From Serinibacter arcticus (GTDB lineage: Bacteria > Actinomycetota > Actinomycetes > Actinomycetales > Beutenbergiaceae): DNA of 64,000 nt. The position numbers and the translations under genes are program-made. The stretch covers positions 1,674,001 to 1,738,000 of the forward strand of contig NZ_PYHR01000002.1 in NCBI RefSeq assembly GCF_003121705.1. Direction: 5' to 3'. Positions within the stretch are counted from its first letter, which is position 1. Each line of letters starts with the position of its first letter. Below, one piece after another: positions 17,852-38,152 of this stretch. The notes beneath the pieces are model-generated. The model was not told the DNA's origin. It saw nothing but the letters and a program-made list of their open reading frames with translations, and searched no databases.

Positions 17852-17918
17852 CACACCCCACCACCCCGCGATCCGGGCGCACTCACCCGACCCAACGCGC
17901 CCCAACCACAGGGTCGCC
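17852..17918. repeat. Solo diverged copy of the 68-bp repeat unit
   Basis: This stretch aligns along its length with one unit of the tandem array at 26530-26920. It shares CACC-rich flanks, a GGGCGCAC-type block and the core CGCCCCAACCACAGGGTCGCC (compare CGCACCCCAACCACGGGGTCGCC in the array). It lies alone between two terminators, about 8.6 kb from the array, so this is a dispersed element and not only a local duplication. Confidence 0.6.
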
Positions 17919-25160: not shown

Positions 25161-25294
25161 CCGCCCACCCCGGGGTTGCGGCGCACCCCCGTCTCCTCAC
25201 GCGCCCCAACCCCGGGCTCACCACCGCCGCACCCCGCCCACCCCGGGGTTGCGGCGCACCCCGCCCCCCTCACTCGCCCCAACCCCAGGCTCAC
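25161..25294. repeat. Two palindromic repeats (family A) at the 3' end of the first DUF559 gene
   Basis: Two copies 73 bp apart, 25161-25222 and 25234-25294. Each is an imperfect hairpin. Copy 1 has arms 25169-25184 and 25201-25216 (15 of 16 paired; right arm GCGCCCCAACCCCGGG) with a 16-base loop. Copy 2 has arms 25242-25257 and 25274-25289. The stop codon of the DUF559 gene (25291-25293) lies inside copy 2. The CCCCAACCCCGG core is shared with the array at 26530-26920. Confidence 0.75.
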
Positions 25295-26376
25295 CCTGCT
25301 CGCCGGCGTTCCGACACCGGTGCACTCCAGGCACCCGCACGGTCCAGGACGTCGCGCACCTGACGAACCATCGTTCCGCCTACCCCGAGGTGCTCCGCCC
25401 AGTAGTCCAGGACGCGAGCCCTCTCCGTGGCCACCACGGCGTTCCTCCGGGTGTCGTCCCGGACCGCGACCCCGTGATACTCGCGGCCGTTGAGCTCCAC
25501 GATGAGCCAGGAACCGTCGGGGAGCCGGAACCCGATGTCGCCTCGGGCGACGAGGACGCCGCTGGCGTCGACGATCCGGACCTGGATGTCGGTCGGCCGG
25601 AGGCCCGCCGCGTCGAGGTCGTAGTAGGCCCACGACTCGAGCGGCGACTCCCTCCGCCCGTCGACCAGCGCCCACACCACCGCCAGCCCTGCCGCGCCAC
25701 GCCGCCCGACGAGGAGCGCCCTGACCTCGGCGACCTCCTCCTCCGTGACGACCTGGCGGTGCAGCGCGCTGTCGAGCATCCCGAGCGCGGTGCGGGGGGA
25801 GCATCGCGGCAGCGCCTGCGCCAGTGCATCGACCGGATGGGCGCACCGAAAGGCACCGACCTGAACGGGCGAACGCGTCAGGGACACCTCCCGACACCGG
25901 AGCCCGTCCCGGTCCGAACGCGCAGAACCGCAGGTCACCTCCGGGGAGTGGACGGGCAGTCCCCAGACCCCGTGACACGCGAGAGCGGAGAACCCGACCG
26001 CCGTCGCCCGCCCACCGAACGCGAGGAGTGCGAGAGCTGCAGCGCGACGGTGCCTTGCATCGGGTCGTAGCTGCAGGGGGCTCGAGGAGGCGACGTCGTA
26101 GACGCCCCGCGTAGGTCGCCGCCAGCGTCCGGTCAGGACCCGGCGCTTCGCGACGGCGACCGAGACGCCGCACATCGCGAGCTGGGACGACGTGAGGAGG
26201 CCGTGCTGGGTGGTCGCCAGCCGCACGACCGCCGCGGGCAGGAGGTCGGCGAGCACCGGAGCTCGCAACGACGTCGGAGCGGCGGTGCTGCTGGTGTCGA
26301 GCAGCACCGGGACCGGTGCCCTCACGATCGGGGGCAGTCGTCTCTCGGCCGAGGTCGGGGTGGTGTCGGTGCCCAT
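25291..26376 (-). CDS. AbiEi-type winged-helix / DUF559-like nuclease-fold protein (paralogue A)
   Basis: A 361-residue protein. The N-terminal part (about 35-85, GLLTSSQLAMCGVSVAVAKR, RPTRGVYDV) resembles the winged helix of type IV antitoxins (AbiEi). The C-terminal part (about 250-350) has SPLESWAYYDL, DIGFRLPDGSWL and VELNGREYHG, resembling PD-(D/E)XK/Vsr-like DUF559 domains. It is a clear paralogue of the gene at 36970. Codon use is looser than its neighbours, and it is bounded on both sides by related repeats, suggesting an accessory element. I chose ATG 26376 because both paralogues then have CTGTCCCCAGG 77-78 bases upstream; ATG 26436 is also open. No AbiEii toxin partner is present. 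Confidence 0.7.
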   Translation of the reverse strand: MGTDTTPTSAERRLPPIVRAPVPVLLDTSSTAAPTSLRAPVLADLLPAAVVRLATTQHGLLTSSQLAMCGVSVAVAKRRVLTGRWRRPTRGVYDVASSSPLQLRPDARHRRAAALALLAFGGRATAVGFSALACHGVWGLPVHSPEVTCGSARSDRDGLRCREVSLTRSPVQVGAFRCAHPVDALAQALPRCSPRTALGMLDSALHRQVVTEEEVAEVRALLVGRRGAAGLAVVWALVDGRRESPLESWAYYDLDAAGLRPTDIQVRIVDASGVLVARGDIGFRLPDGSWLIVELNGREYHGVAVRDDTRRNAVVATERARVLDYWAEHLGVGGTMVRQVRDVLDRAGAWSAPVSERRRAG

Positions 26377-26452
26377 GCCCGAGGGAACCGCGACCCCGCA
26401 GCTCACCGCCAAGGTGTCGACCGACGATCTGCACATTCCGACGCGGCGTCCC

Positions 26453-26463
26453 CCTGGGGACAG
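26453..26463 (-). promoter_or_regulatory. Shared upstream box CTGTCCCCAGG (paralogue A)
   Basis: The same 11-mer occurs at 36882-36892 before paralogue B. It lies 77 bases from ATG 26376 here and 78 from ATG 36970 there. Conserved position suggests a promoter, leader or regulatory site; role unknown. Confidence 0.4.
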
Positions 26464-26499
26464 CGCTCGGCTGGCTGACGCCTCATCTGCGCCCCTCGC

Positions 26500-26926
26500 T
26501 CACCCGCCCCAGCCCACCCAGGGGTCCGGGCGCACCGCAACCCACCCGCACACCCCAACCCCGGCCTCACCGCACCACCCACCATCCAGCAGTCCAGGCG
26601 CACCGCAACCCACCCGCACACCCCAACCCCGGCCTCACCGCACCACCCACCACCCAGCAGTCCAGGCGCACCGCAACCCACCCGCACACCCCAACCCCGG
26701 CCTCACCGCACCACCCACCACCCAGCAGTCCAGGCGCACCGCAACCCACCCGCACACCCCAACCCCGGCCTCACCGCACCACCCACCACCCAGCAGTTCA
26801 GGCGCACCGCAACCCACCCGCGCACCCCAACCACGGGGTCGCCACCCCACACCACCCACCACCCAGCAGTTCAGGCGCACCGCACCCCACCCGCGCACCC
26901 CAGCCCCGGGGTCGCCGCCCTCCCCC
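26500..26926. repeat. 68-bp tandem repeat array
   Basis: Six successive GGCGCACC(G)C blocks begin at 26530, 26598, 26666, 26734, 26802 and 26875, a period of exactly 68 bp four times and then 73. Each unit runs through CACCCCAACCCCGGCCTCACC and CACCACCCACCACCCAGCAG. The first three full units are nearly identical; the outer ones diverge toward CCAACCACGGGGTCGCC. The strand is strongly C-rich. It fills most of the spacer between paralogue A and the serine hydrolase; I see no gene in it. 68 is not a multiple of three, so open frames through it are by-products. Confidence 0.85.
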
Positions 26927-26999
26927 GACCGTCCTCCCCCGCGCGGCCTCCGCCACGCGACTGATGCGCCGGACCGGCCCGGCGGGTTCTCATGGAGTC

Positions 27000-28420
27000 A
27001 TGAGCTCCTCGACCCGCAGACACGCCCCCGCCGCGCTCGTGGCCGCGCTCGCGCTCGTCCTCGGCGCCTGCAGCGGCCCCGCCGACGACGCGACCGACAC
27101 GCCGTCGACCACCGAGGACGCGACGTCCGCCTCCCCCACCGAGCCCGCCTCCGAGGAGACCGAGGCGGCCGAGGTCGTCGAGATCCCCGCCACCACGGTC
27201 GGGAGCAGGTCACCTGGACGATCGCGGCGCTGGCTCCCGATGCCGTCGTCGACCCCGCGGACGCGCAGGCCCGGCTCGCCCCGGCCGTCACCGCCCAGCT
27301 CGACGGCGCCGGTCTCGTGCAGGCCTTCGCAGGCGTTGCCGCCACCGGCCCCTGGGAGCCGATCGGCTACGAGGGCGACGACACCTCCGCCGTCGTGCAG
27401 CTGCGGGACGCGGGCGGCGAGAAGCTGGAGCTCACGCTCGCTCTCGACGCCGCCGGCCTGATCGAGCGCCTGTTCTTCCAGCCCGCCTTCGAGCACACGC
27501 CCGCGACCTCGTGGGAGGAGCTCGGCACCGCCGTCGAGAACCTGCCCGCCGAGACGACGCTCGTGGTCACGGACGTCACCGACCCCGACGCCCCCGAGGT
27601 GGTCTTCAGCTCCGGCGAGGAGGGCGCCTTCCCCGTCGGCTCGATCGTCAAGCTGTACGTGCTCGGCGCCGTCGTCGACGCGGTCGAGGCGGGGACGCTG
27701 ACGTGGGAGGACACGCTCACCGTCACCGACGACCTCAAGAGCCTGCCGAGCGGCGAGCTCCAGGACGCCCCGAGCGGCACCACGGTCACCGTCCGCGAGG
27801 CCGCCGAGGCGATGATCGCGATCAGCGACAACACCGCCACCGACATGCTCGTCGCTGCCGTCGGTCGCGAGGCCGTCGAGACGCAGCTGGCCGAGATGGG
27901 CCACCACGACCCCTCCCTGAACATCCCGCTGCTCACGACGCGCGACCTGTTCGTGATCGGGTGGGGCGACGACGCCACGCGCCGCACGACCTGGGCCGAC
28001 GGCGACGAGACCGTCCGTCGTGACCTGCTCGCCTCGCTGCCCTCCGGGCTCCCCGGGGTCGACCCGCTGACGGTCTCGACGCCCGTCTGGCAGGACGGCG
28101 TGGACTGGTTCGCGACGCCGGAGGACCTCGTCGCGGCGCACCTCGCCCTGCAGAAGAAGGCGGAGACCCCGGCCGGTGAGCCGGTGCCGGACATCCTCGG
28201 CGCCAATCCGGGCTTCGCCCCCGAGGTGGCGTCGACCTTCGACGAGGTCGCGTTCAAGGGCGGAAGCTCCATGGGCGTGCTCGCGCTGAGCTGGTTCGTC
28301 TCCGGCCCCGACGGCGACCACGTCCTCACGCTGCAGGCCCGCAGCGACCAGCCGTCGCTGACCACCGACGGCCGGCCCTACCTGGCGGCGACGCAGGACG
28401 CGGTGATGCTCCTCGAGTGA
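27000..28420 (+). pseudogene. Class A beta-lactamase-related serine hydrolase lipoprotein, apparent frameshift
   Basis: The front encodes a lipoprotein signal (ALVLGAC lipobox) and an acidic Ser/Thr-rich linker. The second frame carries the transpeptidase/beta-lactamase fold: SxxK as GSIVKLYV, SDN as AISDNTATDML, and KGG as AFKGGSSMG, with a KTG-equivalent role. Inserting one G in the GGG run at about 27202-27204 joins the frames (TVGEQVTWTIAALAP) and gives 473 residues. It resembles actinobacterial LppW/LpqF-like lipoproteins. Whether it hydrolyses beta-lactams is unknown. As given, the frame is broken; I suspect a sequence error. Confidence 0.8.
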
Positions 28421-36573: not shown

Positions 36574-36603
36574 CACCGGGGCGCCCCGGCGCGCAAGCCG
36601 GCC

Positions 36604-36806
36604 GCGCCCTTGTGGTCGCAGGGGCTGGTCGACCGTGCCCTTGTGGTCGCTGCAGGCGTCGAATCACGACCACAGGGGCGCGCTCGAACGGCCCGACGCG
36701 CCCTCCTGGTCGCGAGAACGATCCGACCGCTCCCTTGTGGTCGCGACGCCGACCCGACCGCTCCCTCGCGGTCGCTGTACGTGGCGGATCGCGACCACGC
36801 GGGCGC
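36604..36806. repeat. Palindromic repeat cluster (family B), upstream of DUF559 paralogue B
   Basis: Seven arms of the motif GCGCCCTTGTGGTCGC or its inverse lie at 36604-36619, 36635-36650, 36666-36680 (inverse), 36698-36713, 36729-36744, 36760-36775 and 36791-36806 (inverse). Two pairs form complete 46-47-bp hairpins, 36635-36680 and 36760-36806, with related loops (CTGCAGGCGTCGAATCA, CTGTACGTGGCGGATCG). The others are solo arms. The rest of 36574-36969 shows nothing except the CTGTCCCCAGG box. Confidence 0.85.
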
Positions 36807-36881
36807 AGTCGGGGACGCCACAACCACCGAGCGCGGGTGGCGCGCGTGTCATTCGCCTCGGTGACCTGGCACGCACGTCGA

Positions 36882-36969: not shown

Positions 36970-37971
36970 ATGTCCCCCACCACCCTTCCCGTTCTCCGTC
37001 TCGTACCTGACGACCTCCTGGTCGGCGCGCTTCGAGAGGTCGCCGTGCGACAGCTCGGAATCCTCTCCGTCGCCCAGCTGAGGGATCACGGCGTCACCCG
37101 CTCCACCGTGCGGAACCGCGTCGAGAAGCGCCGCTGGCGCTCGGTCGCGCGCGGCGTCGTCGACGTCGGAGCCGTTCCCCCGGACCAGCTCCACCCGGCC
37201 GAACGCCTGACGCGGTCAGCGGTCCTCGGCCTGGTGGCGCGAGGTCCGGACGCGATCGCCGTCGGGCTCTCGGCACTGGCGCTGTTCGGGGTGTGGGGTG
37301 TCCCGCTGAACACTCCCCCGCAGGTGACCAAACCGGACGCGAGCGGACGGAAGAAGCGGGCCGAGGTCGTCTGCCGACGCTTCGTGCCCGGCGACTCGAT
37401 CACTCACGTGAACGGATTCCGGGTCGTCACGGCCGACCGGGCACTGGCGCAGGCGATCGTCGAGGTGGACGCGCGGACAGCTCTGGGTCTGCTGGACAGC
37501 GCGCTGCACCGAGGGGTCATCGACGTCGGCGACCTCGAGCGGGTCAGCTCGCTCGCCTCCCGTCGGCGAGGCGCCAGGAAGATCTGGGACGTGTGGCGGC
37601 TGGTGGACGGACGGCGCGAATCGCCGCTGGAGTCCTGGGCCTACTACGACCTCGTCGCCGCCGGGCTGACCCCGACCGACATCCAGGTGACCTTCCGAGA
37701 CTCCTTCGGCCGGGTCCTCGCCCGCGCGGACATCGGCTTCAAGCTGCCCGACGGGAGCTGGCTGCTCATCGAGCTCGACGGCAGGGAGTACCACCCGCCC
37801 GGGCTGGCCGGCGTCGAGGAGTCGCGCGACAACACCCTCTCGATCGATGCCTTCGGCACGACGCTCCGGTACCGCGGCCATCACCTCGGACCGCGGGGGC
37901 AGATGATCCGCGAGGTTCGCCGGGCGCTCGAGGCACGGCACTGGGTGCCTGCACGGGCCGCTGCGGCGTGA
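36970..37971 (+). CDS. AbiEi-type winged-helix / DUF559-like nuclease-fold protein (paralogue B)
   Basis: A 333-residue paralogue of the protein at 25291-26376. Near-identical blocks are DGRRESPLESWAYYDL, AAGLTPTDIQV, ADIGFKLPDGSWL and IELDGREYHPP; the last three hold the acidic residues expected of a PD-(D/E)XK/Vsr-like core. The N-terminus (GILSVAQLRDHGVTRSTVRN, WRSVARGVVDV) resembles the AbiEi winged helix. It is flanked on both sides by family B palindromes. I chose ATG 36970 over the in-frame GTG 36901 by the conserved distance to the CTGTCCCCAGG box. No toxin partner is adjacent. DNA nicking or repeat binding is speculation. Confidence 0.72.
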   Translation: MSPTTLPVLRLVPDDLLVGALREVAVRQLGILSVAQLRDHGVTRSTVRNRVEKRRWRSVARGVVDVGAVPPDQLHPAERLTRSAVLGLVARGPDAIAVGLSALALFGVWGVPLNTPPQVTKPDASGRKKRAEVVCRRFVPGDSITHVNGFRVVTADRALAQAIVEVDARTALGLLDSALHRGVIDVGDLERVSSLASRRRGARKIWDVWRLVDGRRESPLESWAYYDLVAAGLTPTDIQVTFRDSFGRVLARADIGFKLPDGSWLLIELDGREYHPPGLAGVEESRDNTLSIDAFGTTLRYRGHHLGPRGQMIREVRRALEARHWVPARAAAA

Positions 37972-37987
37972 GTCGGGCACCCGGACC

Positions 37988-38096
37988 GCGCCCTTGCGGT
38001 CACGTCGCCTCGCCCACCGTGCCCTTGTGGTCGCTGTACGACGCCGATCACGACCACAAGGGCGCGTTCAAACCACCTGCGCGACCACAAGGGCGC
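37988..38096. repeat. Palindromic repeat cluster (family B), downstream of DUF559 paralogue B
   Basis: A solo arm at 37988-38003, one full 47-bp hairpin 38019-38065 (GTGCCCTTGTGGTCGC, loop CTGTACGACGCCGATCA, then CGACCACAAGGGCGC), and an inverted solo arm at 38082-38096. The loop is nearly the same as in the upstream hairpins. The first arm begins 17 bases after the stop codon of paralogue B. Confidence 0.85.
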
Positions 38097-38152
38097 GGTC
38101 ACACCCGCCCCGGCGAGTGACCGACCTCACAGCGCCACCACTCCGTCTGTGG

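Follow-up and report, generated by a model that had tools for sequence, protein, structure and literature searches.

A dyad between a murA-type gene and bS22 belongs to a repeat family that brackets an AbiEi-Vsr fusion gene, a candidate one-gene mobile module

The window, which is the whole stretch of 64,000 nucleotides that was analysed, carries a short intergenic segment (17852-17918) between a murA-type gene, encoding an EPSP synthase domain and an HTH, and a bS22-like gene, a homologue of which is annotated AURKAIP1/COX24. In this segment lies a solo dyad, which is enclosed, as read by eye, by two ordinary terminator-like hairpins. Further along the window, a single gene, p1, has dyads of this family to its left and right. 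Its product joins an AbiEi-type part to a Vsr-like nuclease part, and a related gene, p2, is flanked by repeats of a family of its own (Table 1).

Table 1. Repeats and family genes in the window (positions are those of the window)
Feature	Position	Strand	Remarks
Solo 54-bp dyad	17862..17915	+	Inverted half-sites 17862-17880 and 17897-17915; between murA-type gene and bS22
Two tandem dyads, family of the solo dyad	25164..25295	+	3' side of p1; overlap its stop end by 5 bp
Family gene p1	25291..26436	-	AbiEi-type DNA-binding part and C-terminal Vsr-like (MTES_1575/DUF559) nuclease part; start uncertain (26436 or 26376)
Array of six dyads, family of the solo dyad	26515..26916	+	5' side of p1; inside over-long mechanical ORF 26192-28420
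Second repeat family, upstream of p2	36600..36810	+	GCGCCCTTGTGGTCGCTGC and its inverse; limits by eye
Family gene p2	36970..37971	+	48% identical to p1; own repeat family
Second repeat family, downstream of p2	37980..38105	+	Limits by eye

The original prediction held that the segment aligns over nearly its full length with one unit of a distant array. It does so with the array unit at 26786-26853, at a strict local score of 57, while 500 dinucleotide shuffles gave a mean of 27 and a maximum of 47, none of them reaching the observed value. When the solo dyad was left out and a position-specific model was made with the 14 other units in alignment A1, this model gave it 48.8 bits; the best score in reversed, uncomplemented DNA was 5.0 bits (both strands of the own DNA, 1.17 million positions), and the ranked scores drop from 27 to 15 bits once the members of the dyad family end. 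Chance likeness of C-rich intergenic DNA would be the simplest explanation in a sequence of 73% GC with a C-rich repeat, and we rejected it as virtually without credit in view of the shuffles, the distance between 48.8 and 5.0 bits, and the ten loci that the model recovers.

The repeated unit itself had to be redrawn. What had been taken for a 68-bp unit is a 54-bp dyad: the constant part of the 16 units compared is a pair of inverted 19-bp half-sites with the consensus SASCCYGSRSWTSSGGYGC, 35 bp from start to start, and this offset is identical in the solo dyad and in the 15 others. The figure of 68 bp is the tandem spacing inside part of one array; the spacing is 71-74 bp elsewhere and 63 bp at C2:2317284. 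Nor is the solo dyad a single dispersed copy, since another two dyads occupy 25164-25295 and the genome has seven additional loci elsewhere. The suggestion of a genome-wide element family, rather than duplication in place, was borne out by the profile search, in which a sequence-only model of 15 units found 10 loci in the 4.06-Mb genome, with 21 units and a partial one among them (150 of about 10,000 first-look candidates were scored per genome); further copies exist, and the score of the solo copy is better than that of shuffled C-rich DNA. The same search in 23 other genomes of the taxonomic family, with 150 of roughly 10,000 first-look candidates scored in each, gave no match to this dyad family at E 1e-4. 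The prediction had missed both the dyad nature of the unit and the nuclease gene that its family encloses between 25164 and 26916. Of the ten loci, those at 25164-25295 and 26515-26916 have p1, and no other gene, between them. By a simple GC-based gene call the dyad loci are intergenic with three exceptions, one overlapping a called 59-aa ORF, one being the array inside the over-long ORF and one overlapping the end of p1 by 5 bp.

The product of p1 matches AbiEi models in its N-terminal part (Pfam AbiEi_4, E 1.2e-5; PADLOC AbiEi, E 2.6e-12). The AbiEi model PDLC02228 matches all six own proteins scanned, at E 1.1e-7 to 7.2e-17, and Pfam AbiEi_4 exceeds its cut-off in two of them. Matches of the C-terminal part are weaker: NF007294/DUF559 at E 0.019 in p1, below cut-off, and MTES_1575 in the nuclease part of four of the six proteins, at E 1.4e-4 to 4.8e-3, below the curated cut-off. 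A profile of the six paralogs found PDB 3hrl at E 0.003 and, weakly, at E 0.62, the mobile intron protein 3r3p, which we take to be a Vsr-fold homing endonuclease (family label EDxHD). Among 99 family proteins, 94 of them represented in most of the columns named here, conservation is highest at D254 (100%), E268 (100%) and E221 (98%), followed by A102 (96%), G271 (95%), D270 (93%), R286 (90%) and H275 (80%). By comparison with related nucleases, the conserved residues are presumably those of a nuclease active site. Structure models of the window proteins were poor (pLDDT 48.9 and 33.9); for the better one, the best Foldseek match had E 0.11, with no confident fold match; that no family is listed there is uninformative, and VIA aligned this model (pLDDT 48.9) to AbaSI 4par with Z 5.0 and an rmsd of 5.7 over 108 residues, which is inside the range of unrelated rows. 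On viral contigs, a search for the protein family with one peptide pattern confirmed no relative. On plasmids, matches to the gene-bearing junction query extended over parts of it only, with none of the 11 records covering most of the query.

Ten family genes are present in the own genome at E 1e-12, and when their flanks were read, each gene was found to have on both sides a repeat that differs from those of the other genes. In a 10x10 matrix of left against right flanks, both the row and the column maximum fall on the diagonal for 10/10 genes, own pairs scoring 50-130 and all other combinations at most 42 (0/100000 permutations were as good). The single ordinary gene in the own-genome sample that scored high is a lipoprotein-like gene located between two copies of another dyad, and this dyad was later found on both sides of the tenth family gene, which provided an unplanned confirmation.

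Nine of the ten repeat families also have copies away from their own gene. In 0.58 Mb of own DNA, which included 0.38 Mb of stretches distributed over the chromosome (two of these stretches had been positioned at known hits), such copies were found for F1-F5 and F7-F9 and none for F6, while F10 has two copies beside the lipoprotein-like gene; reversed-query controls gave 0 in all 11 cases. These BLAST counts are low, because the search recovered only 4 of the 8 F1 loci that are distant from the gene. The lipoprotein-like gene lies between its two tenth-family dyads without a family gene (L212:10679-11776), a possible composite arrangement. It had been asked whether copies lie at gene ends. Of 35 off-gene places in nine families, 17 lie between convergent genes, 10 between tandem and 2 between divergent ones; 4 fall inside called ORFs, and for 2 the position relative to genes could not be assigned (the called coding fraction being 0.84, with a few rows overlapping between families, at L111 and L208).

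Scattering of this type is not confined to the own genome. Four genomes in which the family gene has the motif GTGATCATGCA contain 413, 90, 68 and 106 copies of this motif. Since reversed GTGATCATGCA contains CTAG, a tetranucleotide that is rare in such genomes, it would have been an unfair control, and therefore three other genomes, which were not chosen for the motif, were used; they have 4, 1 and 2 sites. Convergent pairs of GTGATCATGCA (all 90 sites of G027 and 58 of the 106 sites of G045) gave 33 spacings, of 36-40, 47-49, 60 and 69-70 bp. Among the periods of 6-20 bp tried, 10.5 bp fitted best, with a Rayleigh R of 0.889 that none of 20000 uniform draws equalled; this statistic may be inflated by the copying of a few ancestral dyads, and the distances still fall on helical turns. 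According to PMC7319586, AbiEi of S. agalactiae binds a pair of 23-bp inverted repeats with 3 bp between them, and Rv2827c binds inverted-repeat pairs with a 13-bp gap. The two gaps differ by about one turn.

Do these dyads act in RNA or in DNA? Hairpins or terminators at gene ends would be a natural explanation for dyads that can fold, the more so as several other family genes have dyads in the form of near-perfect palindromes and roughly every second off-gene place lies between convergent genes. However, in the 15 units of the solo dyad's family the 19-pair stem showed no covariation (66.3% paired against 66.4% in shuffles), and its covariation score was matched by 195 of 500 shuffles in this one family. 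Another family is helically phased, and the solo dyad, as read by eye, already sits between two terminator-like hairpins. We thus consider an RNA role very improbable and, because the stem lacks covariation, we read the dyad of this family as a site on double-stranded DNA.

A site on DNA may also be an operator. The dyads could belong to an AbiEi-type repressor that controls its own gene, the scattered copies controlling other genes or acting as decoys and the nuclease having another job. Known AbiEi proteins autoregulate through their paired 23-bp inverted repeats (PMC7319586), repeats do lie upstream of the family genes, and helical phasing would suit protein dimers. Yet the repeats are found on both sides of the genes, only two of the off-gene places are between divergent genes as opposed to 17 between convergent ones, and the three most conserved columns are in the nuclease part. 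Autoregulation combined with a regulon therefore seems unlikely to us, even if it is the strongest of the alternatives.

Comparison with relatives is consistent with gain and loss of whole blocks. In S. arcticus (L116), the murA-bS22 junction lacks the dyad. An empty site of the type that had been looked for is found there only to this extent, since the junction differs beyond the dyad: the terminator-like hairpins also differ, and we do not regard it as a clean insertion. Elsewhere, congeners lack entire gene-plus-repeat blocks. The p1 block with both arrays is missing in S. arcticus, and neither congener has p2 and its repeats: the flanking pieces there are about 150 bp apart, compared with 1671 bp here. 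Similarly, both congeners lack g258 and g260, G002 lacks g259 and G001 lacks p3. G002 has p3-p6, p6 as a shorter frame, and G001 has p4 and g259, with p5 and p6 as two frames each; these split orthologues (L315 and L319) suggest decaying modules. At the nine gene-less pairs of site and genome (p1, p2 twice, p3, g258 twice, g259, and g260 twice) no cognate repeat was seen above the reversed-query level in these diverged relatives; F9 at a gene-less site of G002 was slightly above that level (34 against 23). Counting against mobility, no insertion with a clean target duplication was seen, the relatives being too diverged. The surroundings change as well: in G027 and G045, which belong to one genus, the gene (62.5% protein identity) and its repeats are shared, and no other sequence of the 1.5-kb flanks is. 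As separate observations, orthologous congener sites at L286, L301, L321 and L326 hold other dyad-like repeats, by eye, as if repeatedly occupied, and at the site orthologous to the C2:1515668 dyads, G002 has about 1.4 kb without a family gene (L323:1295-2732; S. arcticus).

These gains and losses bear on a role in defence or addiction, in which the nuclease would harm foreign or own DNA while the dyads titrate it or mark self, the host being kept dependent. AbiEi domains are known from abortive-infection toxin-antitoxin pairs, as the PADLOC match indicates, and MTES_1575 nuclease domains, described as Vsr fold, occur in a large HEPN conflict fusion protein according to PMC3710099. Nevertheless, the one neighbour scanned for p1 is a TrkA-like protein and the one scanned for p2 a trehalose phosphatase, neither of them a toxin partner, and ten mutually distinct gene-motif sets together with the congener losses and gains are better suited to selfish turnover. 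We hold this possibility to be slightly less likely than that of autoregulation.

The association of gene and repeat extends through the order and, to a lesser degree, the phylum. A family gene is matched in 46/59 sampled genomes of the order and in 28/90 genomes sampled across the phylum, with up to 14 family genes in other genomes. For 49 of 55 order genes the two flanks have a repeat in common that scores above the 95% control level (33), and for 43 it exceeds the 99% level (48), the genes coming from 30 genomes (nine from the own one) and the control pairing the left flank of one gene with the right flank of a gene from another genome (n=660, maximum 362). Minus the nine own genes, the counts are 40/46 and 34/46. 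All cross-genome left/right combinations gave 163/2838 above 33 and 24/2838 above 48, and the highest scores belong for the most part to syntenic or same-motif pairs. Ordinary genes exceeded 48 in 1 of 135 cases in the own-genome sample and in 0 of 739 in 80 other loci; at the looser level of 33 they did so in 93/874, about one in ten, which counts against the module reading. In the phylum, where four of 44 genes were skipped for short flanks, 22/40 genes exceeded the 99% control there (32.2), or 20/38 minus two genes of the own order. The sets of 55 and 40 genes are mostly the better-scoring places listed and no random draw, and it also speaks against the module reading that 6/55 order genes and 18/40 phylum genes had no common flank repeat at the thresholds used, that F6 lacks an off-gene copy in the sampled DNA, that the gene-less sites have no cognate dyad and that the matches of the nuclease part stay below their curated cut-offs.

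Motif sharing was also compared with protein similarity across genomes. Among 854 cross-genome pairs from 43 genes (12 of the 55 having been dropped for a flank score under 48), the motif was common, with a score of 30 or more, in 8/58 pairs at a protein similarity of >=0.3 and in 1/796 below it. Over all pairs, similarity of protein and of motif were weakly related (rho 0.09, 158/2000 permutations as high), which again counts against the module reading, and the signal is concentrated in the close pairs, several of them syntenic. G031, G049 and G065, and partly G040 and G056, are syntenic over the whole locus and hence not independent; G045 and G024 have a downstream neighbour gene in common, and G027 and G038 have an identical core motif in unrelated surroundings.

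Taken together, our preferred reading, to which we assign a probability of roughly 0.6, is that the repeat serves as cognate DNA site for a single-gene mobile module whose spread is driven by its nuclease. The module would consist of an AbiEi-Vsr fusion gene with dyads or arrays on both sides, made up of a motif of roughly 20 bp that no other family gene of the genome has. Two protein molecules may occupy the two half-sites of a dyad through their AbiEi-like part, the nuclease would then nick or cut at or near the dyads, and repair from a copy elsewhere could spread the dyads or the whole block of gene and dyads. The solo dyad would in this case be a non-autonomous copy or a footprint of the p1 module. 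That gene and dyad are cognate is very probable from the sequence comparisons; direct binding of the dyads by the family protein is a prediction we consider probable, and mobility driven by the nuclease is one that we lean towards.

Such a module resembles several known systems without coinciding with any of them. The closest is REPIN-RAYT, described in PMC3116915 as scattered inverted doublets together with a cognate enzyme gene, present in single copy and adjoined by these repeats, with several repeat-enzyme pairs per genome; here too, scattered extragenic inverted doublets go with a cognate enzyme gene, in different pairs per genome. In contrast, the enzyme here is an AbiEi-type part fused to a Vsr-like nuclease and no Y1/HUH transposase, the one family tested shows no sign of stem covariation, and half-sites, in one family, are helically phased as for binding to double-stranded DNA. 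The modules would thus work like REPIN-RAYT but lack its defining enzyme, since the Y1 transposase PF01797 has no match in the own genome (G000), while 5/14 control genomes match. The resemblance might also mean that an unrelated transposase moves the dyads as MITE- or REP-like elements, into which the nuclease genes inserted as passengers. The Y1 family, the one transposase family searched, is nevertheless absent from the genome, and passengers would not be expected to have a motif of their own in 10/10 cases, which makes this explanation improbable.

AbiEi antitoxins of the type IV toxin-antitoxin system AbiE are related through the N-terminal part, but the proteins here are fused to a nuclease, have repeats on both sides and scattered, and lack an AbiEii in the one neighbour scanned per window gene. 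With Vsr-fold homing endonucleases they would share a Vsr-like nuclease and a mobile gene; nuclease-type residues are conserved, and there is the weak match to 3r3p; the difference is that the gene here brings its sites along, and has many of them scattered. Because the gene-less sites compared lack the cognate repeat, the modules depart from classical homing. As regards insertion sequences, flank repeats are present here, and no clean target-site duplication was seen in relatives that are too diverged. Finally, the C-terminal part is weakly similar to MTES_1575/DUF559 REase domains, and the passages on these domains in PMC3710099 do not mention repeats.

Nuclease genes that each have a private motif look like a previously undescribed kind of mobile DNA; none of the literature matches listed describes the association of gene and repeat, and a description elsewhere is possible. 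We would also rather expect than not that Actinomycetota carry a large undescribed class of AbiEi-Vsr modules, each with its own dyad family, which would generate much short intergenic repeat DNA. If true, this would account for how many of the short repeats between genes of high-GC actinobacteria arose, and provide a role for a common, unexplained gene family. Moreover, dozens of natural protein-site pairs, whose specificity apparently differs between paralogs, would be a test bed for the evolution of AbiEi-type DNA recognition, and the family is a possible source of new site-specific nucleases.

The architecture of the flanks is not uniform. In the clade of L245, L249, L240, L241 and L277, motif copies upstream of the gene mostly have a single orientation and those downstream the opposite one, and other family genes have complete dyads on each side, so that two architectures occur within one family. 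In addition, a family gene of G077 (L254) has AT-rich flanking dyads, and the architecture is thus not tied to GC-rich repeats.
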